Positions 28,536 through 41,287 of a stretch of DNA of 64,000 bases are shown in pieces. The notes under the pieces were generated by a model. It made no database searches, was not told the origin of the DNA, and saw only the letters and a list, made by a program, of their open reading frames with translations. The stretch is taken from contig NZ_NPZB01000001.1 in the NCBI RefSeq assembly GCF_002895945.1, positions 1,069,501 through 1,133,500 on the forward strand. Reading direction: 5' to 3'. The number at the start of each line of letters is the position of its first letter. Positions within the stretch are counted from its first letter, which is position 1. The position numbers and the translations under genes were made by a program. The DNA is from Solilutibacter silvestris. Lineage in GTDB: Bacteria > Pseudomonadota > Gammaproteobacteria > Xanthomonadales > Xanthomonadaceae.

Positions 28536-28611
28536 GGGTCGTTAGCTCAGTCGGTAGAGCATCGGACTTTTAATCCGTTGGTCGACGGTTCGAATCCGTC
28601 ACGACCCACCA
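28536..28611 (+). tRNA. tRNA-Lys (anticodon TTT)
   Basis: The 76-nt sequence folds as a cloverleaf. The acceptor stem pairs GGGTCGT with ACGACCC, the D arm contains TAGCTCAGTCGGTAGAGC, the anticodon loop is CTTTTAA, the T arm is GACGGTTCGAATCCGTC, and the CCA end is encoded. TACAAT at 28498-28503 is a plausible -10 box of its own promoter. Confidence 0.97.
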
Positions 28612-28907: not shown

Positions 28908-31900
28908 GTGTCATTCAAGGAACGATTGCGCGCATTTTCGGAGCGCACCAGCCGCATGCCAGCGGCTGTTTTTTCATTCATTTTTGCGTCGCTGATTGCA
29001 CTCTCCCCTCAAGGTGCGATGGCGCAAGTCGTGAACACGGCAACGGTGACGCCTCCGCAGGATGGCAGTGTCGTCAATGCCGGAACAGCATGCACGAGCG
29101 CTGGTAGCGTTTTCAACGGATCGGGCAAGCAGGAATGCAAGGCTACCGATACCGACACCCTTCTTTTTCCCGTCACCATCACCAAGACGGTGACGGTTAC
29201 CGGCGGCACGCCAGCAGGCGGCACGCCAGGGAATTTCAACTTCAGTTTGAGTTGCGCGACACCAACGGCTACGTATACCGGAACGATCACCTTCGCTTCC
29301 GGCGACACCAGCAAATCGACGGTCGTGAATGTTCCAGCCGGCTCGACCGCATGCACGTTGAACGAAACGGCCACCCCCACCGCGCCCGCCGGATATGCCT
29401 GGGGCGCGGCCACGTATGCCAATCCCGCCGGCACCATCAATGCGGCGGCGAGCGGCACGATCACCAACCCGCTCAATCGCCAGAGCGCGCAACTCATCCT
29501 GCAGAAGACCTGGGCGGCCAACAGCATTGCCGGCGACCAGACCACGGTGACGACCGATACATTCGCTAATAACGCGAGTTCCGGCGCATCCACCGCACTA
29601 GCGGCGGGCAACACGACGGCAGGCGCGGCGGTCACGGTCTATGTCGGTGAATCGGCCAACATTTCCGAAACGGGTTTCCCCAACCTGTCCAACTACACCC
29701 AATCTTGGAGTTGCACGGGTGGTGGATCCCTGAGCGGGAACAAGATCACGATCGCTGCTGCCGATGTCGGCAAGACGATTACTTGCACCGAGAGCAATAC
29801 GCGCAAGACGAAGACGCTGACGGTGGCGAAGACGTGGTCGGCGGGTGCGTTGGCGGGTGACACGGCGACGGTGAGCGTGCCGGCGAGCCTGGGCAGTGCG
29901 ACGAGCGGCTCGTCGGTGGCGACGGCGGCGGGCAATACGACGACGGGCACGGGCGTGACGGTGTCTGCGGGTGCGAGCGGTGCGCTGAGCGAGGCGTTCA
30001 CGGTTGGCAGTGGTCTGAACTACACGGCGAGCTACAGCTGTACGGCGGGCGCGACGGTGGATGCGTCTGGGACCGTGACGATCGATGCGACGGCGGCGTC
30101 GCCGACGTGCACGATCACGAATACGCGCAAGACGAAGACGCTGACGGTGGCGAAGACGTGGTCGGCGGGTGCGTTGGCGGGTGACACGGCGACGGTGAGC
30201 GTGCCGGCGAGCCTGGGCAGTGCGACGAGCGGCTCGTCGGTGGCGACGGCGGCGGGCAATACGACGACGGGCACGGGCGTGACGGTGTCTGCGGGTGCGA
30301 GCGGTGCGCTGAGCGAGGCGTTCACGGTTGGCAGTGGTCTGAACTACACGGCGAGCTACAGCTGTACGGCGGGCGCGACGGTGGATGCGTCTGGGACCGT
30401 GACGATCGATGCGACGGCGGCGTCGCCGACGTGCACGATCACGAATACGCTTATCCCGAAGCCCGCGCTGACGATCGTGAAGAGTGCGGGCAAGCCGACG
30501 GTGAACAAGGGTGCGAGCAACACGCTCACGGATGCGGGCGACACGATTGCGTACAGCTTCGTGGTGACGAACACGGGCAACACGCCGCTGATAGCGGTAG
30601 TGGTGAACGACACACAGCTGGATGCTGCGGCGAACTGCCCGGCGACGATGCTGGCGGTGGGCGTGAGCATGACCTGCACAGGCACGCACACGATTACCCA
30701 AGCGGAAGTGAACGCGGGCAAGTCGGACAACAGCGCAACCGCGGGCGGCACGCCGCCGAACGGGACGCCGGTGCTCTCGCCGCCGTCGACGACGACGACG
30801 CCGATTGCATTGACGCCGGTTATGACGCTAAAGAAGACGGCGGACAAGGCAACGTACTCGGTGGTGGGTGACGTGATCACCTACACGTACACGCTCACGA
30901 ACATGGGCAACGTGGCGATCAACGGCTTGTCGGTGACGGACGACAAGCTGGGAACGGTCGGCAATTGCACGCCAGCCAACTTGGCGCCGAGTGGACAGGG
31001 CACGTCGGTGGCAACTTGTTCGGCGACACACACGGTGACGCAGTCCGACCTTACGGCAGGTTCGATTACGAACGTTGCAACAGGGCATGGCACGCCGGTG
31101 GGCGGAATGCTGGTACCTCCTACGGCAACGTTGACGGTGACGGCCAAACCCAATCCGATCGTGGCCAAGGACGACTCGTACCCGAACATCAGCGGAGCAA
31201 CGGGTGCGACGACGGCAAGCGTGATCGTCAACGACACGTTGAATGGCGCGACGCTGACGACAGGCGATATCGGCGCGAAGGTTGCGCTGACGCCGGGTAC
31301 AGCGCCGACGACCACGTCGGGTGGCATCGTGATGAATCCGGACGGCACCATCACGGTGAAGCAGGGCACGCCGGCGGGTACGTACACCTACCCGTACACG
31401 ATCTGCGAGAAGCTCAATCCGAACAACTGCTCGACAGCTACGGCCACCGTGGTGGTGAACGCCGCCCCGATCGTTGCCATCCCCGACGTTTACACCGGCA
31501 TCAACGGTGCGACGGGCAACCCGAACGCGGGCAATGCCTACGGCAACGACACGTTGGGCGGCCAGCCGGTGGATCCGGCGAAGATCGTCGGAACGGTGGT
31601 CACGCCGGCAACGCCGATCAATGGCGGCCCGGTGCCGAGCCTCGATCCGGTGACGGGTGCGGTGAGCGTGCCGTCAGGCACACCTGCGGGCGACTACCAG
31701 ATCAGTTACAAGATCTGCGAGAAGCTCAACCCGTCCAACTGCTCGACAACGACGATCGATGTGAAAGTGGTAGCGGCCGCGATCAAGGCCATCGATGACG
31801 ATCACTCTTCCGATCCGATCAACGGTGGCAATGGCGGCAACACGCCAACGGTGCTGGGCAATGACACGCTCAATGGCCAGCCGGTCAGCGCGACGACGGT

Positions 31901-34106
31901 GACGTTGACGCCGGGCGCCAGTCCGAATCCGGGCCTGGTGATGAATCCCGACGGCACCATCACGGTGAAGCCGGGTACGCCTGCGGGCACGTATGCCTAT
32001 CCATACACGATCTGCGAGAAGCTCAATCCGGCCAATTGCTCGACGGCGACGGCGACGGTGAAAGTGACCGCTCCGGTGATCATTGCGACGCCGGATACGC
32101 CGCCTGCCATCGACAGCACGACTGGCGGCAACACCCCGAGCGTGCTGATCAACGACACCATCAATGGCCAGCCGGCGACCACGGGCAATGTGGTGCTGAC
32201 GCCGGGCAACAGCCCCAACTCGGGTCTGGTGATGAATCCGGACGGCACCATCACGGTGAAGCCGGGCACGCTCGCAGGCACGTATACCTATCCGTACACG
32301 ATCTGCGACCGCATCAATCCGACCAACTGCGCCAATGCCACGGCAACAGTCGTGGTGACGGCCCCGGCATCGATGCGGGTGACCAAGACGGCGCAGCCGA
32401 GCAATGTCCACGTCGGTGACCTGGTGCGTTACACGCTGACCATCGAGAACACCGGCAGCGTGCCTGTGAATGCGGCGACGCTGATCGATACGCCGCCGGC
32501 AGGCTTCAGCTACGTCGACAAGTCGATGACGATCGTCGATCGCGACAACAAGGCCAACATGATCGCGACTCGCACGCTCATCGTGTCGGGCATCGACATC
32601 GACGTCGGCCAACGCGCGGTAGTGACCTACATGCTGCGCGTGGGTGCGGGCATCCATCCGGGCACGTACACCAACCAGGCGTTGATGCAGGATCGTGGCC
32701 GCGATGCCTCCAACATCGCGACGGCCGATGTCCAGGTAGTCGGCGATCCGATGACAGACGACACATTGATTGTCGGTACGGTGTTCGATGACCGCGATGG
32801 CGATGGCTGGCAGGATTCCGCGACGGCATCGGGCCTGAAGGCGCAGGGCGGATTCTCGCCGGCGGCCTACGTGTCCAACTCGACCACGGTGGATCGTGGC
32901 GATGGCCCGAAGCCGGAGGCCGATCACAGCTCGCCGATGCTGCATGGCATTCCCTTGGGCGAACTCAAGGGTCGCCAGTCGGATGCCGATCCGGTGGCGA
33001 AGCACCAGATCGTGATCCGCCAGCATCTGCGCGAACTCGCTTTCAACGATGACTTCGTACTGACCTCGAAGGAAGGCGTCACCGTGCGCATGGATGCCGC
33101 CGGCAAGACCCGCGTCGAGACCAGTGGCGATGCAGCCAAGGGCTTGAATGCAGTCGATCTGAAGGTGGAGCGCAAGATCGCGCAGGTCGAAGACGGCTAC
33201 CAGGTCGACTACGTCATCAGCAATGCCGGCGTCGACGAACGTGGTATCCCCGGCGTGCGCATCGCGTCGGTGGAAGGCTTGCTGATCGAAACCGACCAGT
33301 TCGGTCGCTATCACCTCGCGGCAATTCCAGGTGGCCCGGACACGCGTGGCCGCAACTTCATCCTCAAGGTTGATCCGTCCACGCTGCCGCCAGGCACCAC
33401 CTTCACCACCGACAATCCGTTGGTGCGCCGAGTGACCCCTGGTCTGCCGGTGCGCTTCGACTTCGGCGTGAAGTTGCCGTCCGGCGTGATCGAAGGTGCG
33501 ACCGAACTGTACGAGATGGAGCTGGGCAAGATGATGTTCGATCCCGGCAGCGCCAGGCTGCACGAGCGATACGCCCCAGTGGTCCGGAATATTGCCGATG
33601 AAATTCGCGGCCATGGTGGCGGTGAAGTGGTGATCGCGGCGCAGGGCGAGGACGAATTGCTCGCGTTCGATCGCGCGGTGGCGGTGCGCAAGGCGCTCAT
33701 TGCGGCGTTGCCGGTGGAGATCGCGGCCAAGACCCGCGTGAGCCTGCGCACCAATCCGGCCGATGCGCGAAGTACAGTGGTCGGACTGCTGCAGTGGCCG
33801 CAGATCGGCAATGTGTTGTTCGACACCAACAAGTCGACGATCAAGCCCGAATTCGCGCCTTTGATCGCGAGGATCGCCGATTACCTCGTGCAGTCGGAAA
33901 CCAAGCGTGTCGTCATCAGCGGTCATGCCGACCCGCGGGCATCGGATGCCTACAACGATGCGCTCGGCATGCGTCGCGCCAAGGCTGTGTTCGACGCCAT
34001 CACCGCACAATTGCCCGAATCCAAGCGCAAGGGAGTCCAAGTTGAGTTCGAATCTGGTCCGTCCAGTTCCTCCGGACAGCACAACGCCCAGGAGGGCCGG
34101 CCATGA
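28908..34106 (+). CDS. Giant exported DUF11-repeat protein with C-terminal OmpA-like domain
   Basis: A 1732-residue exported protein. The signal peptide ends GAMA at residue 39. Order of parts: a Thr/Cys-rich beta region (40-295); two identical 108-residue modules (297-404 and 405-512); two DUF11/DUF7507-type modules (~518-746); four ~98-residue modules (~749-1152), most with NPDGTITVK..TPAGTY and an ICEKLNP.NCS end; another DUF11 (~1156-1285); an SdrD-B/carboxypeptidase-regulatory-like stretch with VGTVFDDRDGDGWQD; then two OmpA-like units near 1544 (MMFDPGSARLHERY, degenerate) and 1638 (LFDTNKSTIKPEF...VVISGHADPRASDAYND...RRAKAVFDAI). The OmpA part should hold peptidoglycan; the repeats could extend outwards. 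The GTG at 28908 follows AAGGGGGAG; a GTG one codon earlier, an ATG at 28842 and one at 28956 are alternatives. It overlaps the next gene (ATGA). Function unknown; surface structure inferred. Confidence 0.8.
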   Translation: MSFKERLRAFSERTSRMPAAVFSFIFASLIALSPQGAMAQVVNTATVTPPQDGSVVNAGTACTSAGSVFNGSGKQECKATDTDTLLFPVTITKTVTVTGGTPAGGTPGNFNFSLSCATPTATYTGTITFASGDTSKSTVVNVPAGSTACTLNETATPTAPAGYAWGAATYANPAGTINAAASGTITNPLNRQSAQLILQKTWAANSIAGDQTTVTTDTFANNASSGASTALAAGNTTAGAAVTVYVGESANISETGFPNLSNYTQSWSCTGGGSLSGNKITIAAADVGKTITCTESNTRKTKTLTVAKTWSAGALAGDTATVSVPASLGSATSGSSVATAAGNTTTGTGVTVSAGASGALSEAFTVGSGLNYTASYSCTAGATVDASGTVTIDATAASPTCTITNTRKTKTLTVAKTWSAGALAGDTATVSVPASLGSATSGSSVATAAGNTTTGTGVTVSAGASGALSEAFTVGSGLNYTASYSCTAGATVDASGTVTIDATAASPTCTITNTLIPKPALTIVKSAGKPTVNKGASNTLTDAGDTIAYSFVVTNTGNTPLIAVVVNDTQLDAAANCPATMLAVGVSMTCTGTHTITQAEVNAGKSDNSATAGGTPPNGTPVLSPPSTTTTPIALTPVMTLKKTADKATYSVVGDVITYTYTLTNMGNVAINGLSVTDDKLGTVGNCTPANLAPSGQGTSVATCSATHTVTQSDLTAGSITNVATGHGTPVGGMLVPPTATLTVTAKPNPIVAKDDSYPNISGATGATTASVIVNDTLNGATLTTGDIGAKVALTPGTAPTTTSGGIVMNPDGTITVKQGTPAGTYTYPYTICEKLNPNNCSTATATVVVNAAPIVAIPDVYTGINGATGNPNAGNAYGNDTLGGQPVDPAKIVGTVVTPATPINGGPVPSLDPVTGAVSVPSGTPAGDYQISYKICEKLNPSNCSTTTIDVKVVAAAIKAIDDDHSSDPINGGNGGNTPTVLGNDTLNGQPVSATTVTLTPGASPNPGLVMNPDGTITVKPGTPAGTYAYPYTICEKLNPANCSTATATVKVTAPVIIATPDTPPAIDSTTGGNTPSVLINDTINGQPATTGNVVLTPGNSPNSGLVMNPDGTITVKPGTLAGTYTYPYTICDRINPTNCANATATVVVTAPASMRVTKTAQPSNVHVGDLVRYTLTIENTGSVPVNAATLIDTPPAGFSYVDKSMTIVDRDNKANMIATRTLIVSGIDIDVGQRAVVTYMLRVGAGIHPGTYTNQALMQDRGRDASNIATADVQVVGDPMTDDTLIVGTVFDDRDGDGWQDSATASGLKAQGGFSPAAYVSNSTTVDRGDGPKPEADHSSPMLHGIPLGELKGRQSDADPVAKHQIVIRQHLRELAFNDDFVLTSKEGVTVRMDAAGKTRVETSGDAAKGLNAVDLKVERKIAQVEDGYQVDYVISNAGVDERGIPGVRIASVEGLLIETDQFGRYHLAAIPGGPDTRGRNFILKVDPSTLPPGTTFTTDNPLVRRVTPGLPVRFDFGVKLPSGVIEGATELYEMELGKMMFDPGSARLHERYAPVVRNIADEIRGHGGGEVVIAAQGEDELLAFDRAVAVRKALIAALPVEIAAKTRVSLRTNPADARSTVVGLLQWPQIGNVLFDTNKSTIKPEFAPLIARIADYLVQSETKRVVISGHADPRASDAYNDALGMRRAKAVFDAITAQLPESKRKGVQVEFESGPSSSSGQHNAQEGRP
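29796..30443 (+). repeat. Perfect 324-bp tandem duplication (two units)
   Basis: Units 29796-30119 and 30120-30443 are identical base for base in my reading, and seven bases of a third start follow (AATACGC). Each encodes 108 residues, from NTRKTKTLTVAKTW to ASPTCTIT, so the frame is kept. Within the unit all 21 Ala codons are GCG and all but one Thr codon are ACG. Confidence 0.95.
31153..32364 (+). repeat. Four diverged ~98-codon repeats
   Basis: At protein level, four consecutive modules begin with a PIVA.DD-like segment and carry an NDTLNG- or NDTING-like motif. They end with a YPYTICEKLNP.NCSTATATV block; the second is the most diverged (QISYKICEKLNP). Approximate borders are 31153, 31465, 31780 and 32068. 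At DNA level they share long stretches, such as GACGGCACCATCACGGTGAA, in units 1, 3 and 4. Confidence 0.85.
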
Positions 34107-37100
34107 AGAAGACGAAACTCAAACTGCTGGACTACACGCTGATGTGCATGCTCTCGGGCATGGCCGCCGGTGTGCACGCGCAAAACACGATTCCGATGGA
34201 GGGGAACACGCCGGCGTCAACTGTTGGCGATACCGCCACCAACAAGCCGGCACGGGATCAGCAGCTGCCAGCCACCACGAATTGCGGCAGCGATGGTTGC
34301 AGTGATGATGGCAACATGCTGTTCAAGGTGATCAGCCGCGGCAAGCGCGACCCGGTGGTGGTGGGCACGGAGAAATCCGATTCGCAAACACTGCAGCCCG
34401 ATCGCCGCGTGTCGGTCAAGACGGGAAAAGTCACGAGCGACTGGAAGCACGATCTTGCGCCCGGACAAGCCGTCGCCGTCGGAAAATGGTCGGTGCAATT
34501 GCCCAATGGCGGCGTGATCTGGGCGACCGAAGATCCCAATCTCGGCCAGCCGCAGATGGCGGTTTCGGCGAGCAATCTCGTTGCCTATGACGGCAGCAAG
34601 ATCACCAAGCCGGTGAAGTTCTACGGCAGCAGCAACTATTCGGCGTTCATGAAACGCGCCGAGATCGTGGTGTTCCGTGCCAGCGACAGCGATCTGGTGA
34701 CGCCACTGGCGACGATTCCACTGAAACTCGGCGCGATCATGGAAGGCGAGTGGGATGGCCACATCGATGCCGCCACGGGCGCGCCGTTGCGCGTCGGTGA
34801 CGAACTGACCTACGTCGTGCGTGCATATTCGGACGACAAGACTTACGACGAGACCTATCCCGCGCGCATGCAATTGGTGCGCCCGGAGGAAATGGAAGTC
34901 CAGCAGCAACGCACCACCGCACAATCCGTGCAGAACGGACAGCGTCCGCTGACCGATGCCGCCGCCAGCGAGATGCTGCAGATCCAGCAGGTGTTCGGCC
35001 AGAACACGCTGCGCCAGCAGAACATCGCGGTGTACGGATCGCGCGTGCGCATCCAGGGTCGCAACGTTCCCGACCAGCGGCAGGTGACGATCAACGGGCA
35101 GTCGATGCCGGTCGATCTCGAACGCAAGTTCGTCTCCGAATACCTGTTGCCAATCGGTCGCTACGATTTCGACGTGCTGGTCGGCAAGGATGGCGACGTC
35201 AATTCCGCACACAAGAAACTCGACATCGATGTCACCGGACGCTATTTCTTCGGCGTCGGCATTGCCGATTTCACCTTGTCCGGCAACAGCGTGTCCGGCT
35301 CGGTCGAACCGCTGGCCAACCAGCCGCAGTTCACCAAGGACAGCCTGCTGGAAGGGCGCCTGGCGTTCTATCTCAAGGCCAAGGCCAAGGGCAAATACCT
35401 GTGGACAGCGCAGGCCGATACACAGGAAAAGCAGGTCTCGCAACTGTTCACCGGTTTCTGGAAGGCGGACGCGACCGACGTGTTCCGCCAGCTCGATCCC
35501 GATGCCTACTACCCGGTCTATGGTGACGATTCCACGACGTATCGCGATGTCGACACCATGGGACGCCTGTACCTGCGCGTCGATTGGGACAAGAACCAGG
35601 CGTTGTGGGGCAACTACAACACCGGCCTGACCGGCACCCAGTACGCGCAATACGTCCGCAGTCTCTACGGCGCGGCAGTGGCGTGGCGTTCGCAAGCAAC
35701 AACGAAATACGCCGAGCCCGATACCGTGTTGCGCGCCTTCGGATCGCAAGCACAGAGCACCCCCGGCCACAGCGAATTCCTCGGCACCGGCGGCAGCCTG
35801 TACTACCTCAAGCACACCGGCATCCTGCCCGGCTCGCAACAGGTGGTGCTGGAGATCCGCGATCCCACCACGGGCTCGGTGATCAATCGCGTCACCCTCG
35901 CCAATGGTGTCGATTACGAGATCGACGCCTACCAGGGCCGCATCCTGCTGACGCGCCCGCTGTCGCAGGTCGCCAGCGAAAACGTGCACACGCTGACGCG
36001 CGATACCCCGTTGACCGGCTACACGCAGATCCTGCTGGTCGATTACGAATATGTGCCACAGGGCTTCAAGGCCGATGACGTCGCTGCCGGCCTGCGCGTC
36101 AAGCACTGGTTCGGTGATCACGTCGGCGTCGGCGCGACCTATGTCGACGAGAATCGCTCCGGTGACGATTACCGCATGGCCGGTGCCGATCTCACCTTGC
36201 AGGCGGGTCGTGGCACCTACCTGAAGGTCGAACAGACGCACACGCAATCCACCAGCGCACCGATCTTCTATTCCAGCAACGGTGGCTTGAGCTTCACCCA
36301 GACCAATGCCGCGCAACTGGCGAACGCCAGCGGCACCGCGCGGGCGGTCGAAGCGCGCATCAACACCAAGGAACTGGGCTGGACCCAGCGCGAATGGCAG
36401 GGCGGTGCGTGGTGGCGCGATGTCGATGCGGGGTATTCGATCTCGCGTTACGACATCGGCCAGCCGGTGCATGAAGTCGGCGCCGAAGTGCTCGGCGATG
36501 TCAGCGACGTGCTGCGGATGTATGCCCGCGTCAGTCGTGCCGAACGCGGCAGCGATTTGCTCGAACAGGCACAGATCACCGCCGACTGGCGCTTGAACGA
36601 ACGTTCGTTGCTGAGCGCGGAACTGCGTCGCGTCGATCAGCGCAGCGCTGGCGTCGAAAGCGTCGGCACCTTGCTGGCGGCCAAGTATTCACAGCACATC
36701 GGCACCTCGCTCGATGTCTACGGCATCGCCCAGCTCACGCTCGACGACGACAGTGGCAAGTACGCCAAGAACAATGCGTTCACCGCGGGCGCCAAGTACA
36801 TCTTCGGCAACCTCTCGAACATCGGCGGCGAAGCGACGGTGGGCGATCGCGGCAATGCGGTCAGCGTCAACGGCGAATATCGCGTCAGTCAGAACCACAC
36901 GCTGTACGCCAACTACACCTATTCGACCGACACCACCCAGTACGACCCGCTGTTCAATCCCAGCGTGACGCCGGGTTGGACCGTGGGCCAGCGCTGGCAA
37001 CTCAACAGCAAGGTCAACGTCTTCAACGAGAGCCAGTACCTGAAGGCGCCGAACCAGTCCGGCCTCGCCAACACTTTCGGCATGAACTTTTATCCGTCGC

Positions 37101-37891
37101 AAGGATGGAACACCGGCTTCACCCTGCAGCAGGGTTCGCTGGACCAGGCCGATGGCAAGACCAACCGCCAGGCGATCAGCGTCACCGGTGGCTACACCAA
37201 CCCGGTTGCGCAGTGGCAGAGCAAGCTGGAGTGGCGCAAGGACAGCGGCGCCGAACGTCGTCGCCAGTGGGTGACCACCAACTGGTTCAACTACAAGTGG
37301 AACGAAAGCCTGCGTTTCGCCGGACGACTCAACATGTCCGACACGCAAGACGAAGTGCAGTCGATCGCCGGTGCGCGCTTCGTCGAAGGCAATGTCGGCT
37401 TCGCCTGGCGTCCGTGGAATTCCACCAAGTACGCACTGCTCGGCAAATACACCTATCTGTATGACGTGTCGGCATTGCCGCAGGTGGGCAGCGATACCGC
37501 CTACTACGACCAGCAAAGCCGCGTGTTCTCGATCGAAGGCGTCTATCACCCGCTGCCGCGCTGGGAATTCTCGGGCAAGCTGGCGCGTCGCGATGGCGAA
37601 GTGCGCTTCGGTCGATTCACCGGCGCATGGGAAAGTTCCGCGGCGACCTTCGGTGCAGTACAGGTGCGCTACGGCTTGATCCACACCGACTGGAACGCGC
37701 TGGCCGAATACCGCTGGCTGGGCGTCGACAAGGGCGGCATCCGCAAGGGCGTGCTGCTCGGCATTGATCGCAACATCACCAAGGGACTGCGTGTCGGCGT
37801 CGGCTACAACTTCACCGATTTCAGCGACAACCTCACCGACTTCAGCTACCGCCATCGCGGCTGGTTCCTGAACGTGGTGGGGAGTTATTGA
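34103..37891 (+). CDS. Very large outer-membrane beta-barrel protein candidate
   Basis: A 1262-residue exported protein with signal peptide 1-26 (ending GVHA). Residues ~30-330 are a soluble part with a C-x4-C pair (TNCGSDGCSDDG), followed by beta-sandwich-like segments. One of these (~300-400) reads NIAVYGSRVRIQGRNVPDQ. From ~430 to the end there are many alternating aromatic/polar strands (for example RLYLRVDWDKNQ, GVGATYVDEN and HTLYANYTYSTD), finishing RGWFLNVVGSY with a terminal aromatic residue, as in outer-membrane barrels. There is no TonB box or plug domain. The ATG at 34103 overlaps the stop of the DUF11-OmpA gene (ATGA), so the two are translated together. I do not recognise the family. 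A likely role is a pore or anchor for surface display of the neighbours; this is inference. Confidence 0.75.
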   Translation: MKKTKLKLLDYTLMCMLSGMAAGVHAQNTIPMEGNTPASTVGDTATNKPARDQQLPATTNCGSDGCSDDGNMLFKVISRGKRDPVVVGTEKSDSQTLQPDRRVSVKTGKVTSDWKHDLAPGQAVAVGKWSVQLPNGGVIWATEDPNLGQPQMAVSASNLVAYDGSKITKPVKFYGSSNYSAFMKRAEIVVFRASDSDLVTPLATIPLKLGAIMEGEWDGHIDAATGAPLRVGDELTYVVRAYSDDKTYDETYPARMQLVRPEEMEVQQQRTTAQSVQNGQRPLTDAAASEMLQIQQVFGQNTLRQQNIAVYGSRVRIQGRNVPDQRQVTINGQSMPVDLERKFVSEYLLPIGRYDFDVLVGKDGDVNSAHKKLDIDVTGRYFFGVGIADFTLSGNSVSGSVEPLANQPQFTKDSLLEGRLAFYLKAKAKGKYLWTAQADTQEKQVSQLFTGFWKADATDVFRQLDPDAYYPVYGDDSTTYRDVDTMGRLYLRVDWDKNQALWGNYNTGLTGTQYAQYVRSLYGAAVAWRSQATTKYAEPDTVLRAFGSQAQSTPGHSEFLGTGGSLYYLKHTGILPGSQQVVLEIRDPTTGSVINRVTLANGVDYEIDAYQGRILLTRPLSQVASENVHTLTRDTPLTGYTQILLVDYEYVPQGFKADDVAAGLRVKHWFGDHVGVGATYVDENRSGDDYRMAGADLTLQAGRGTYLKVEQTHTQSTSAPIFYSSNGGLSFTQTNAAQLANASGTARAVEARINTKELGWTQREWQGGAWWRDVDAGYSISRYDIGQPVHEVGAEVLGDVSDVLRMYARVSRAERGSDLLEQAQITADWRLNERSLLSAELRRVDQRSAGVESVGTLLAAKYSQHIGTSLDVYGIAQLTLDDDSGKYAKNNAFTAGAKYIFGNLSNIGGEATVGDRGNAVSVNGEYRVSQNHTLYANYTYSTDTTQYDPLFNPSVTPGWTVGQRWQLNSKVNVFNESQYLKAPNQSGLANTFGMNFYPSQGWNTGFTLQQGSLDQADGKTNRQAISVTGGYTNPVAQWQSKLEWRKDSGAERRRQWVTTNWFNYKWNESLRFAGRLNMSDTQDEVQSIAGARFVEGNVGFAWRPWNSTKYALLGKYTYLYDVSALPQVGSDTAYYDQQSRVFSIEGVYHPLPRWEFSGKLARRDGEVRFGRFTGAWESSAATFGAVQVRYGLIHTDWNALAEYRWLGVDKGGIRKGVLLGIDRNITKGLRVGVGYNFTDFSDNLTDFSYRHRGWFLNVVGSY

Positions 37892-37944
37892 TCGATGCTT
37901 GGAAGGGTGCCTCGCTGCATCGCTTTCGCAATGGGGAACGAATC

Positions 37945-39681
37945 GTGTTCGTGAACAAGTCCGATGTGATGCGCAATTGGCATCTGCGTGTGTGTCTCCT
38001 GCTTGCCGGTTTGTTGCTGGCCGGGCAGGCGATGGCGCAAACAGTGCGTTGGGAGGACTATCGCGGCGATCAGAACACCGCTACCGATGCCAACTACAAC
38101 GGCCCCTCGGGCATCCCGAAATTCACCAATTATCCCAATGCCGTTGCCATCGCCAACTTGCGGGCGGTGTCGGCGAATTCCGCGAACGCGGTGCGGACCG
38201 GAACCAGCGCCACCATCGACTTCGCCAGCGGTGCCACAAACGCCTTGTGTGACAACCGGAGCAACACCAACAGCGTGCCGTGTCGCCTCCAGGCGCAGGG
38301 CAAGGTTGCGTATGCATTGGTCCAGTTCCCGAACGCCGGTACCTATACCATCGCCGCCGCGCATGACGACAACGTGGTGATCGAACTGTCACCCGATTTC
38401 ACCAACACGAATTACCGCACGGCCAGTTACAGCATCCTGGCGGGTTCGGTGTCCGACTGGAGCAGCAGCGAAACGGATTTCCAGACTTTTGGAACCTTCA
38501 CCGCTGCCAACGCCAACAGTTGCGCGCTGCTGCGGATGTACTGGAACAACCAGGCAGGCTTGAACTACAACCACTTGCAATGGACCACTCCTGGAGGCAC
38601 CACCCAGATCATCCCCGCGTCGGCGTTTCGCGACCCGGCGTCCGTGAGCAGCGCCAATGGTTGCAACGGTTCGATCAGCGGCAACGTCGCCGGCATCACC
38701 TTGAACAAGGTGATCGGTTCTCCGCGTATCGATGCCGCCGACCAGTTCACCATCCAGATCGGCCTCACCGCGGGCGGGGGCACAGTCGCTGCCGCGACCA
38801 CGGCCGGTTCCGGCACCGGGCAACAGGCCAGCACCAACTTCGCGACGACGACTGGCATGACGTATTACCTGCGCGAAGTGATGGCAGCGGGCTCATCCAG
38901 CCTCGCGAATTACGACACCACCTCGATTGCCTGTACCCGCAACGGGACCGCGTTCGCGCCGACCGTTGTCTCTTTGCCGAATCGACAATGGAGCGTTGTG
39001 CCGGGCGCGACCGACCAGATCGTCTGCACCATCACCAACACGACGACAGCGGTGAAGCCGAGCGTAACCGTCAACAAGGTCAGCGTGGGCGGCACTGGTG
39101 CGTTCACCTTCAGCGGCAGCAATGGCGTGACCAGCCAGACCATCACCACCACGGGCGACGGCGTGCCCGCGGCGGGCACTTCAGACCCGTTGACGACTGC
39201 CGGTACGCAGACCACCGTCACCGAAGGCTCGCCGCCGACAGGTTGGACTCTGCAAAGCATCGGTTGCAGCGGCATGGGCTCGGGCGGCACGGCCACGCCG
39301 AACATCTCCACGCGCACGGTGACGCTGGATGCCGCCGCCACCGCGAATGGCAGTGCCATCGCCTGCACGTTTACCAACCGCAAGCTCACGGTGGACCTGT
39401 CGATCACCAAGACCGACGGAGTCACTTCGATCGTCGCCGGCAGCACCACGACTTACACGATTCGCGTCACCAACAACGGTGTCGACACCGCGACGGGCGC
39501 GACAATTACCGATCCGGTTGCATCCCATCTGACCAAGACGGCGGTTGCCTGTTCGGCTACGCCCGGGCAATGCATTGCCGCGCCAACGATCTTGCAACTG
39601 GAAAGTGCCGGCGGATATGCACTTCCCGCCCTGGCGGCCGGGCAGTTCTACGAAATCAGCGTGACCTGCAACGTCAATTGA
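37945..39681 (+). CDS. Exported PA14-like / DUF11 protein
   Basis: About 578 residues with a signal peptide (hydrophobic VCLLLAGLLLAGQAMA, cleavage near 31). Residues ~33-230 resemble a PA14/GLEYA-type beta-barrel. The pattern includes FPNAGTYTIAAAHDDNVVIEL, then LRMYWNNQAGLNYNHLQW and an ending at IIPASAF; such domains often bind carbohydrate. Two prealbumin/SpaA-like beta modules follow (~250-475, each with a Cys near IACT), then a DUF11 module (~484-578: VDLSITKTDGVTS) that ends SVTCNVN. There is no C-terminal anchor. The GTG at 37945 follows GGGGAA; the ATG at 37969 also gives a full signal peptide and is the main alternative. The gene starts 53 bases after the barrel gene. Function inferred: secreted or surface-bound adhesin component. 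Confidence 0.7.
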   Translation: MFVNKSDVMRNWHLRVCLLLAGLLLAGQAMAQTVRWEDYRGDQNTATDANYNGPSGIPKFTNYPNAVAIANLRAVSANSANAVRTGTSATIDFASGATNALCDNRSNTNSVPCRLQAQGKVAYALVQFPNAGTYTIAAAHDDNVVIELSPDFTNTNYRTASYSILAGSVSDWSSSETDFQTFGTFTAANANSCALLRMYWNNQAGLNYNHLQWTTPGGTTQIIPASAFRDPASVSSANGCNGSISGNVAGITLNKVIGSPRIDAADQFTIQIGLTAGGGTVAAATTAGSGTGQQASTNFATTTGMTYYLREVMAAGSSSLANYDTTSIACTRNGTAFAPTVVSLPNRQWSVVPGATDQIVCTITNTTTAVKPSVTVNKVSVGGTGAFTFSGSNGVTSQTITTTGDGVPAAGTSDPLTTAGTQTTVTEGSPPTGWTLQSIGCSGMGSGGTATPNISTRTVTLDAAATANGSAIACTFTNRKLTVDLSITKTDGVTSIVAGSTTTYTIRVTNNGVDTATGATITDPVASHLTKTAVACSATPGQCIAAPTILQLESAGGYALPALAAGQFYEISVTCNVN

Positions 39682-39787
39682 TCTGCCGCAGGAACAATTT
39701 TTTGCTGGCTGGGATCACGAATTCGCCGGGTTGACCGCAACCGATTGGGCGTATCGTACGGGCACGCATTCACGCTACATTGCTCTG

Positions 39788-41287
39788 ATGACCAATTGTC
39801 GTTTTGCATGGCTGGTTCGATGGAATGCTGCACGGACGGCGTTGCCCACGTTGCTGCTGGCGATGTGCATGCCTTCGTTGGCGCAGGCCCAGCTGTATTC
39901 GAAGACGACATCCGGCGCCTGGAGCTACACCATTCCGGCCAATACCTATTTCGTCACGGTGACCGTGGTCGGCGGTGGTGGTGGCGGTGGTGGTTGGGAC
40001 GCAGTCGGCAAGGGTGGTGATGGCGGAAAGAGCGCCAGCGTGACTGGGGTTGTCGGTGTCACTCCAGGGCAAGTATTGAGCGGTACGGTTGCAGCCGGTG
40101 GTACCGGTGGCGCGTCGCCTAACAGCGCTGCCCCATGCACGGGTGGTGGTGTTGGTGGAACGGGTGGCGCGACGGGTGGCCGTGGCGGCCATCAGAGTTG
40201 CGGATCCGGATACAGCGGCGGCGGCGGTGGCGGCGGCGGAAGTACCACGCTGGTGATCAGCGCGAACATCGTGTTGCAGGCCGGTGGCGGTGGCGGTGGC
40301 GGTGGTGGCGGATTGAACAACCCGGCAACGGTGACCGGTGTGGCTGCGAATGCAACCGCATTGACGGGTGTTGCGACGTGTTCGGCCACGGCTGGTGTCC
40401 AGGGTACGAATGCCCCGGGCGATGGTGGCGGTGGCGGTGGCGGCGGCGCTGGATCGACAGGAGGCGCCGGAGGTAACTTCGGTGCCGATAACACCACGAC
40501 ACCTTCAACCGCAGGCGGCGGTGGTGGTTCCTGCTACCTGACGGGTGGTGCCACATATGTCGATGCCGTGGCGTTGGCGACCGGAGTCGGTGGTGGTACT
40601 GGTGCAACCGGATACGCGACCGGCGGCAGTGGAAGCACGGGTAGCGTGACGATCACGGCGCTGCCCTCGTTGCTGTTGCAGAAGACTTGGGGCGCGAACT
40701 CCCGCACCACGGACAGCATCGCCGTTTCGACGACGGGTGGAACCAAGGTTGCCACGGTGTCTTCCAGTGGAGTCGTGGCAGGTGGAACCACGGCTGGAAC
40801 CCGCGTCTACGAGAAAGCCGGCGATGCCATCACGTTGCCGGCGGAAACATTCACGCCAGGTGCGAGTTCGACGGCATACACGGCGACCCTGACCTGCACC
40901 AACGCGACCTCGCCACCAACGAACGCAACGCCGCCGCGCAGCATCACCCTCACGGCTGCGGACACGGCCGCCGTGTGTACTTATACAAACAAGCCGAATG
41001 CCGATCTCTCGATCACCAAGAGCAATGGCGTCACGACGGTGGTATCGGGCCAGCCAACGACATACACCATCGTGATCAGCAACGGCGGGCCTGCGCCTGC
41101 CAACAATTCGACCGTGACGGATACGCCGGGTTCGGGCTTGAGTGGCTGCGTGGTGACGTGTACCGGAACTACTGGCGGTGCATCGTGTCCGGCACCGCTG
41201 GCGAACGTGCTGACAAGCGGTGCGACAATTGCGACCCTCCCGGGAAGCAGCACTGTCACGCTATCGGTCACTTGCAACGTCAACTGA
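39788..41287 (+). CDS. Exported glycine-rich / DUF11 protein
   Basis: About 499 residues with a signal peptide ending LAQA (34). A beta-strand entry (WSYTIPANTYFVTVTVVGGG) opens a glycine-rich domain (~61-285) with runs of up to 9-10 glycines, of the Gly-rich exported type. Then a module starting LLLQKTWGANS (~296) is similar to one in the DUF11-OmpA protein (LILQKTWAANS). The C-terminal DUF11 module (~405-499, ADLSITKSNGVTT) ends SVTCNVN, as in the preceding gene product. The ATG at 39788 is chosen for the signal peptide although no Shine-Dalgarno is seen; a TTG at 39731 is possible. A 106-base gap separates it from the gene before. Its stop codon touches the stop of the convergent mgtE. Confidence 0.7.
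   Translation: MTNCRFAWLVRWNAARTALPTLLLAMCMPSLAQAQLYSKTTSGAWSYTIPANTYFVTVTVVGGGGGGGGWDAVGKGGDGGKSASVTGVVGVTPGQVLSGTVAAGGTGGASPNSAAPCTGGGVGGTGGATGGRGGHQSCGSGYSGGGGGGGGSTTLVISANIVLQAGGGGGGGGGGLNNPATVTGVAANATALTGVATCSATAGVQGTNAPGDGGGGGGGGAGSTGGAGGNFGADNTTTPSTAGGGGGSCYLTGGATYVDAVALATGVGGGTGATGYATGGSGSTGSVTITALPSLLLQKTWGANSRTTDSIAVSTTGGTKVATVSSSGVVAGGTTAGTRVYEKAGDAITLPAETFTPGASSTAYTATLTCTNATSPPTNATPPRSITLTAADTAAVCTYTNKPNADLSITKSNGVTTVVSGQPTTYTIVISNGGPAPANNSTVTDTPGSGLSGCVVTCTGTTGGASCPAPLANVLTSGATIATLPGSSTVTLSVTCNVN

Follow-up and report, generated by a model that had tools for sequence, protein, structure and literature searches.

How giant surface proteins encoded side by side come to be joined is the question raised by four consecutive plus-strand genes, here called P1 to P4, in a 64,000-nucleotide stretch of the genome of Solilutibacter silvestris (the window; NCBI RefSeq assembly GCF_002895945.1, contig NZ_NPZB01000001.1, positions 1,069,501 to 1,133,500). 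An earlier note had proposed that they form a four-gene unit that builds one surface structure or secretion/display unit. The lasting unit was found to be two genes, P1 and P2, which co-occur across loci, whereas P3 and P4 are exchangeable heads and not fixed members. The idea of one surface structure is supported through a specific joint, read from the sequences, that had been overlooked: P3 and P4 end in incomplete DUF11 domains, and the missing piece is the N-terminus of P1. The system is probably a fibrillar adhesin made in two parts, with a naturally split CLIPPER domain as the joint; CLIPPER is the recent new name of DUF11 (PMC12617251). With somewhat less assurance, it also seems likely that the joint is a natural tag and catcher, in which heads become covalently attached, with no enzyme involved, to the exposed N-terminal end of a stalk that is anchored to peptidoglycan. 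One stalk and one barrel would then serve many interchangeable heads, some of them encoded far off.

The heads carry the first half of this joint. P3 is composed of a signal peptide, a head, SpaA_3 and SpaA_4 domains, and a truncated CLIPPER domain at its C-terminus, and P4 of a signal peptide, a glycine-rich head, a prealbumin-like domain, and again a truncated C-terminal CLIPPER domain. The DUF11 domains that had been claimed for P1, P3, and P4, and the OmpA domain of P1, were all confirmed by Pfam, which also recognized SpaA_3 and SpaA_4 in P3. A PA14-like nature of the P3 head is plausible by eye and finds no match in Pfam or the PDB; the glycine-rich label of P4 corresponds to a Gly_rich_2 match just below the Pfam cut-off. 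DUF11 matches of heads begin at profile position 1 and break off at about position 84 of 114, which lies at the C-terminus of the protein or at most about seven residues short of it. Rather than holding all DUF11 strands in one chain, the heads stop after strand 7, and a complete DUF11 domain, such as the one inside P1, has two further strands beyond this break point. The last residues are ..VTCNVN with no tail, and the motif plus transmembrane tail of sortase, PEP-CTERM, or IPTL-CTERM substrates is absent. A Lys and an Asp are invariant in 56 aligned heads. In 98 unique head C-termini, the Lys is kept in 96 and the Asp in 96, one further head being a fragment with a gap in the Lys column.

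The second half is the beginning of mature P1. After the signal peptide, which ends in AMA, the window protein reads QVVNTATVTPP...ATDTDTLLFPV, and its counterparts, following an A, read QTSVTNTATVTPPSG...NNSATDTD. A CLIPPER profile gives weak scores on single P1 N-termini, as expected for about 25 residues; for this reason a profile was made from the N-termini themselves. Built from 34 P1 N-termini alone, it finds strands 8-9 of internal DUF11 domains with E-values down to 3e-14. Aligned to a profile of the complete DUF11 domain (104 positions), heads cover positions 2-76 and P1 N-termini positions 83-100 (medians), so the two halves are complementary. Free hairpins were not found outside P1, the other matches being broken-off P1 N-termini and two chance matches of 8 bits. 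Polymerization of heads through free hairpins of their own was also considered and rejected, as the cargo N-termini were checked and contain no hairpin. Taken as sequence evidence, these matches argue strongly that the hairpin would dock into the heads.

The chemistry of a possible bond can be derived from a homologue. Crystal structure 9IFR contains an isopeptide bond between Lys715 and Asn806 beside a catalytic Asp (PMC12617251); in its fold class the bond links the first and the penultimate strand, with the Lys on strand 1 and the Asn on strand 8. The catalytic Asp is residue 749 by our count and 748 in that paper. 9IFR was cut from a protein of Acinetobacter silvestris, 2129 residues long, that our set contains as the P1 of locus L071. 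Transferred to the split system, the Lys-Asp-Asn triad is shared out: the heads carry Lys and Asp (in the window Lys508/Asp542 of P3 and Lys430/Asp464 of P4), and P1 carries Asn (Asn43 in the window). The Asn is present in all 34 P1 N-termini, 3-8 residues from the mature N-terminus, and the complete triad is present in 306/311 internal CLIPPER copies. The hallmark of CLIPPER domains, Lys, Asp, and Asn in a CnaA-like fold, thus appears to be preserved with its residues divided between heads and P1. Good but indirect evidence of this kind points to an intermolecular covalent bond, which would be located between the Lys of the head and the Asn of P1.

If head and hairpin belong together, they should be found together. 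P2 was found at 80 loci in public genomes, with representatives in Lysobacter, Luteimonas, Pseudoxanthomonas, Stenotrophomonas, Comamonas, Variovorax, Hydrogenophaga, Acinetobacter, and Microbulbifer. The co-occurrence suggested for all four genes holds for P1 and P2 only: P2 adjoins P1 in all loci with readable neighbouring DNA, and P1 comes first except at L056 (Pseudoxanthomonas yeongjuensis), where P2 precedes P1 and the head is fused to P1. Head genes downstream of P2 vary in number (none, one, two, or four), with orphan copies elsewhere. Even among close relatives, the first head lying between P2 and the same mgtE neighbour in L012 is unlike that of L013, L014, and the window. The P1 start is readable at 39 loci, L050 having been omitted because it has no visible P1 N-terminus. 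A head gene is present at 23/24 loci with the hairpin and at 0/15 without it (Fisher p = 6e-10). On the P2 tree, well-supported branches carry at least 6 switches of the hairpin/head state; the tree offers up to six independent contrasts, and the head gene goes the opposite way in none of them (sign test p 0.03-0.06, borderline by itself because pairs are few). A second sample, drawn from 101 genomes of the family, agrees with the association. Two candidates for heads without a hairpin, L031 and, from the second sample, L109, were dismissed, since their P1 frame is broken and the hairpin lies on a detached piece of it.

Where the hairpin is absent, P1 mostly begins with a head of its own, related to heads that other loci encode as separate genes. 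At L043, the CshA_NR2/GEVED head matches P1 N-termini of Stenotrophomonas, Comamonas, and Acinetobacter with E-values between 1e-97 and 1e-144; the fused head of L056 has homologues in the heads of L082, L020, L044, and L075, and the fused heads of L053 and L089 have one in that of L027. In CshA-type fused heads, a complete DUF11 domain follows directly after the head, with Lys, Asp, and Asn in one chain.

Heads encoded away from the stalk obey the same rule. All 17 orphan heads (17/17) in barrel-bearing genomes end 0-2 residues past strand 7. In six barrel-less genomes, all of the DUF11 proteins with a visible end (9/9) extend at least 57 residues past the last match; several visibly continue through strands 8-9, and some have hydrophobic tails. 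Genome G018 lacks P1 and P2 and has kept two heads (L129, L130), and two congeners have both P1 and P2. These two heads are the only substituted ones among the 98, one with Asp changed to Glu and the other with Lys changed to Asn and Asp to Asn; the substitutions look like decay after loss of the partner. G018 was not accepted as an exception with heads and no barrel, as it is a remnant in which one leftover head adjoins an IS3-like transposase, a gene of insertion-sequence type. A second layout is seen in the genome of the window itself, where a paralogous system (G000:C2:462-475 kb, L092) has its head gene directly upstream of its stalk gene, P1'. Two other genomes share this order (L124, L125). 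The upstream heads likewise end after strand 7 and keep Lys and Asp, and P1' starts with the hairpin and its Asn. An orphan head at G000:C1:593-594 kb (L091:3874-6207), far from stalk genes, has an intact acceptor domain with Lys and Asp.

The following assembly can be proposed. Heads and P1 would be exported by Sec, and signal peptidase would free the P1 hairpin. The hairpin would insert into the open head domain and complete the sandwich, whereupon the Lys of the head and the Asn of P1 would form an isopeptide bond as in the one-piece domain, the catalytic Asp being provided by the head. P2 may be a dedicated barrel that exports or holds P1. The OmpA domain would tie P1 to peptidoglycan, and the repeats would project outward with the N-terminus at the tip. 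P3, P4, and their orphan relatives would be alternative, presumably adhesive, heads for this stalk.

Several observations weigh against this picture. Most of the 80 loci come from one family. A hairpin occurs with no head gene in the available DNA of L032, and likewise in the flank of L073. In L053 and L089 the fused head is joined to the next domain with no CLIPPER domain at the junction, and for the fused N-terminal heads of L039, L042, L067, and L079 the set contains no counterpart encoded as a separate gene. The C-terminal domain of P3 alone folds in AlphaFold2 with a mean predicted local distance difference test (pLDDT) score of 90 and might therefore be stable without a partner; its model matches 9IFR weakly in Foldseek (E 0.6, probability 0.98, TMq 0.64). 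The P2 model, of moderate quality, resembles barrels in general only.

Non-covalent docking by donor-strand complementation, on the model of chaperone-usher pili, would by itself account for the complementary halves, the co-occurrence, and the fused relatives, with Lys, Asp, and Asn kept for packing. However, all three bond residues are retained on the right halves, the same fold forms the bond in the crystal of a homologue (PMC12617251), and both heads of G018, where P1 is gone, have lost Lys and/or Asp; a purely non-covalent joint is accordingly considered unlikely. Even less probable is that the truncated DUF11 domain is a sorting signal read by P2, in the manner of type IX secretion, and that the P1 hairpin has nothing to do with it. 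P2 is equally conserved in 15 fused loci that have no head genes, head genes track the P1 hairpin and not P2, and P3 and P4 match no known C-terminal sorting model, although a common C-terminal domain on varied heads beside a large barrel does resemble type IX logic and P2 is always nearby or in the genome. That gene fission or domain shuffling left the split behind as a mere relic, with halves that never meet, is hardly credible. The at least 6 interconversions of fused and split forms on the P2 tree show breakage to be common, yet the break falls at the same strand across different gene orders, both halves are conserved, free hairpins are confined to P1, and the key residues are altered only where P1 was lost.

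The stalk of the proposed split-domain adhesin is P1. Its order is signal peptide, N-terminal donor hairpin, prealbumin-like repeats, DUF7507 (CLIPPER_2) repeats, cadherin-like repeats, a complete CLIPPER/DUF11 domain, a conserved CnaB-like linker region, and an OmpA domain; DUF11, DUF7507, and OmpA are matched above Pfam cut-offs. Of the features of fibrillar adhesins, the signal peptide, a repeat stalk with isopeptide-type domains, and a cell-wall anchor domain are all present. An adhesive head on the same chain is absent from the window P1, in which the hairpin comes first and the heads are separate genes, and is found in the fused P1 relatives, where Pfam recognizes CshA_NR2. Open frames of P1 range from 926 to more than 4,700 residues across loci. 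The window P1 contains a perfect tandem duplication at 29796-30450, in which the two copies of a 324-base unit encode two identical prealbumin-like repeats of 108 residues, a very recent lengthening of the stalk. In the P1 of L027, L036, L044, L075, and L082, the hairpin is directly followed by a repeat domain (DFCxxxxxFxIxNGVxIYRYS...) and not by CLIPPER repeats.

P2 has no sequence match in Pfam, NCBIfam, or the PDB, the last even with a profile of 57 sequences. Membership in a known transporter family, which had been named as the result that would speak against a joint system, is thus indicated by no sequence match. The barrel-like character suggested earlier was reproduced by AlphaFold2, which predicts with moderate confidence (mean pLDDT 69) a large beta-barrel of more than 30 strands, the count being approximate. 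An usher, LptD, a TonB receptor, and SprA were tried as candidates and rejected, as Foldseek gave generic barrel matches only, with TM-scores <0.4. Homologues at the loci are 53-90% identical to the window P2, and a paralogue in the same genome (G000:C2:470919-474563) is 54% identical. More distant relatives occur in larger open frames (L126-L128, L133, and others), with 32-34% identity over about 1130 residues or in the 417-717 region only; judged by these alignments, they appear to form a wider, unnamed barrel superfamily. An apparent fusion of P2 to a head at L064 was rejected as evidence of linkage, since there the P2 end is disrupted and the open frame simply continues past it. In the loci examined, P1 and P2 are encoded separately, unlike the barrel and passenger of classical or inverse autotransporters, which share one chain. 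P2 may be a translocon, as its invariant pairing with P1 and the predicted barrel suggest.

In chaperone-usher pili (FimH-FimG-FimD), an incomplete Ig-like (immunoglobulin-like) C-terminal domain of the head is completed by the N-terminus of the next protein, and an outer-membrane barrel takes part. The sequence anatomy of the head end and the P1 N-terminus would fit such incomplete-domain completion. Unlike an usher, P2 has no usher family match in Pfam or NCBIfam, and its likeness to FimD in Foldseek is generic; further differences are the two strands, in place of one, that would be donated, the giant peptidoglycan-anchored stalk, and the predicted covalent bond. None of P1 to P4 is a dedicated periplasmic pilus chaperone; the search for one did not extend beyond these genes. 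The type IX secretion system is similar in its very large barrel and in cargo with an Ig-like C-terminal domain. In contrast to its cargo, P3 and P4 have no match to C-terminal sorting models (Por-type, type IX), and P2 has no sequence match and a weak structural match (TMq 0.20) to SprA.

The closest described relative is B9T28_05395 of Acinetobacter silvestris (PDB 9IFR, PMC12617251), which shares a head, a stalk of CLIPPER and cadherin-like domains, an OmpA anchor, a P2 homologue in the next gene, and the same Lys-Asp-Asn chemistry; it differs in that head and stalk form a single chain and the bond is intramolecular. Neither the neighbouring barrel nor a split domain nor an intermolecular CLIPPER bond is described in the accessible part of PMC12617251, which does cite a natural intermolecular isopeptide bond in a helical-hairpin protein. 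SpyTag/SpyCatcher and other engineered pairs (e.g. PMC5487036) likewise divide an isopeptide domain into a catcher with the Lys and a short tag strand. They were engineered from one-chain domains, whereas here the split is natural, the fold is of CnaA type, a two-strand hairpin at the mature N-terminus would serve as tag, and the catcher supplies the catalytic acid. Archaeal threads (Saci_0406, PMC9715654) also combine donor-strand complementation with a proposed intermolecular isopeptide bond; they are homopolymers, the proposed bond runs from the N-terminal alpha-amino group to an Asn two subunits away (PMC9715654), and both protein and assembly are unrelated. A natural system with the present joint was not found in a literature search that reached few subscription papers or preprints. 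As far as the literature searched shows, a joint between two different proteins made by an isopeptide domain that their genes encode in two parts would be new among natural systems.

Splitting isopeptide domains into tag and catcher is a much-used trick of protein engineering. Should the proposed joint be real, evolution would have hit on that trick as well, apparently switching more than once between the split and the one-piece state, and a rich supply of two-strand N-terminal tags would stand ready for use. It would also account for the way in which Gram-negative bacteria swap adhesin heads while keeping one fixed and anchored stalk, assign a function to many genes annotated as 'DUF11 domain-containing protein', and define a new family of outer-membrane barrels.

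Table 1. Features of the adhesin cluster in window coordinates
Feature	Position	Strand	Remarks
P1	28908-34106	+	1732 residues, GTG start; giant stalk protein
P1 mature N-terminus	29025-29174	+	free strand 8-9 hairpin of CLIPPER/DUF11, predicted 'tag'; QVVNTATVTPP...ATDTDTLLFPV
Asn43 of P1	29034-29036	+	predicted isopeptide partner; 4th residue of predicted mature chain; equivalent to Asn806 of 9IFR
Complete CLIPPER/DUF11 inside P1	32376-32696	+	residues 1157-1263; contrast to the split domain
OmpA domain of P1	33807-34037	+	about residues 1634-1710; peptidoglycan anchor
P2	34103-37891	+	1262 residues; predicted outer-membrane beta-barrel protein, invariant partner of P1
P3	37888-39681	+	597 residues as open frame from TTG; head protein
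C-terminal CLIPPER acceptor half of P3	39385-39678	+	strands 1-7; ends VTCNVN-stop
Lys508 codon of P3	39409-39411	+	
Asp542 codon of P3	39511-39513	+	
P4	39731-41287	+	518 residues from TTG; head protein
C-terminal CLIPPER acceptor half of P4	40997-41284	+	strands 1-7
Lys430 codon of P4	41018-41020	+	
Asp464 codon of P4	41120-41122	+	

As seen in Table 1, the four open reading frames are all intact and lie where they had first been placed. In keeping with the translational coupling proposed for P1 and P2, the stop of the former overlaps the start of the latter (ATGA). Scans of the cluster for promoters and terminators gave nothing above chance. Translation of P3 and P4 probably starts some way downstream of the first codon of the open frames, because that is where the signal peptides begin; a GTG or ATG near 37945-37969 is probable for P3 and the ATG at 39788 for P4. 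The cluster is flanked on one side by queC and a tRNA-Lys gene and on the other by mgtE and ptsI. The tRNA-Lys gene occupies window positions 28536-28611 and is thereby the immediate upstream neighbour of P1, with queC on its other side.

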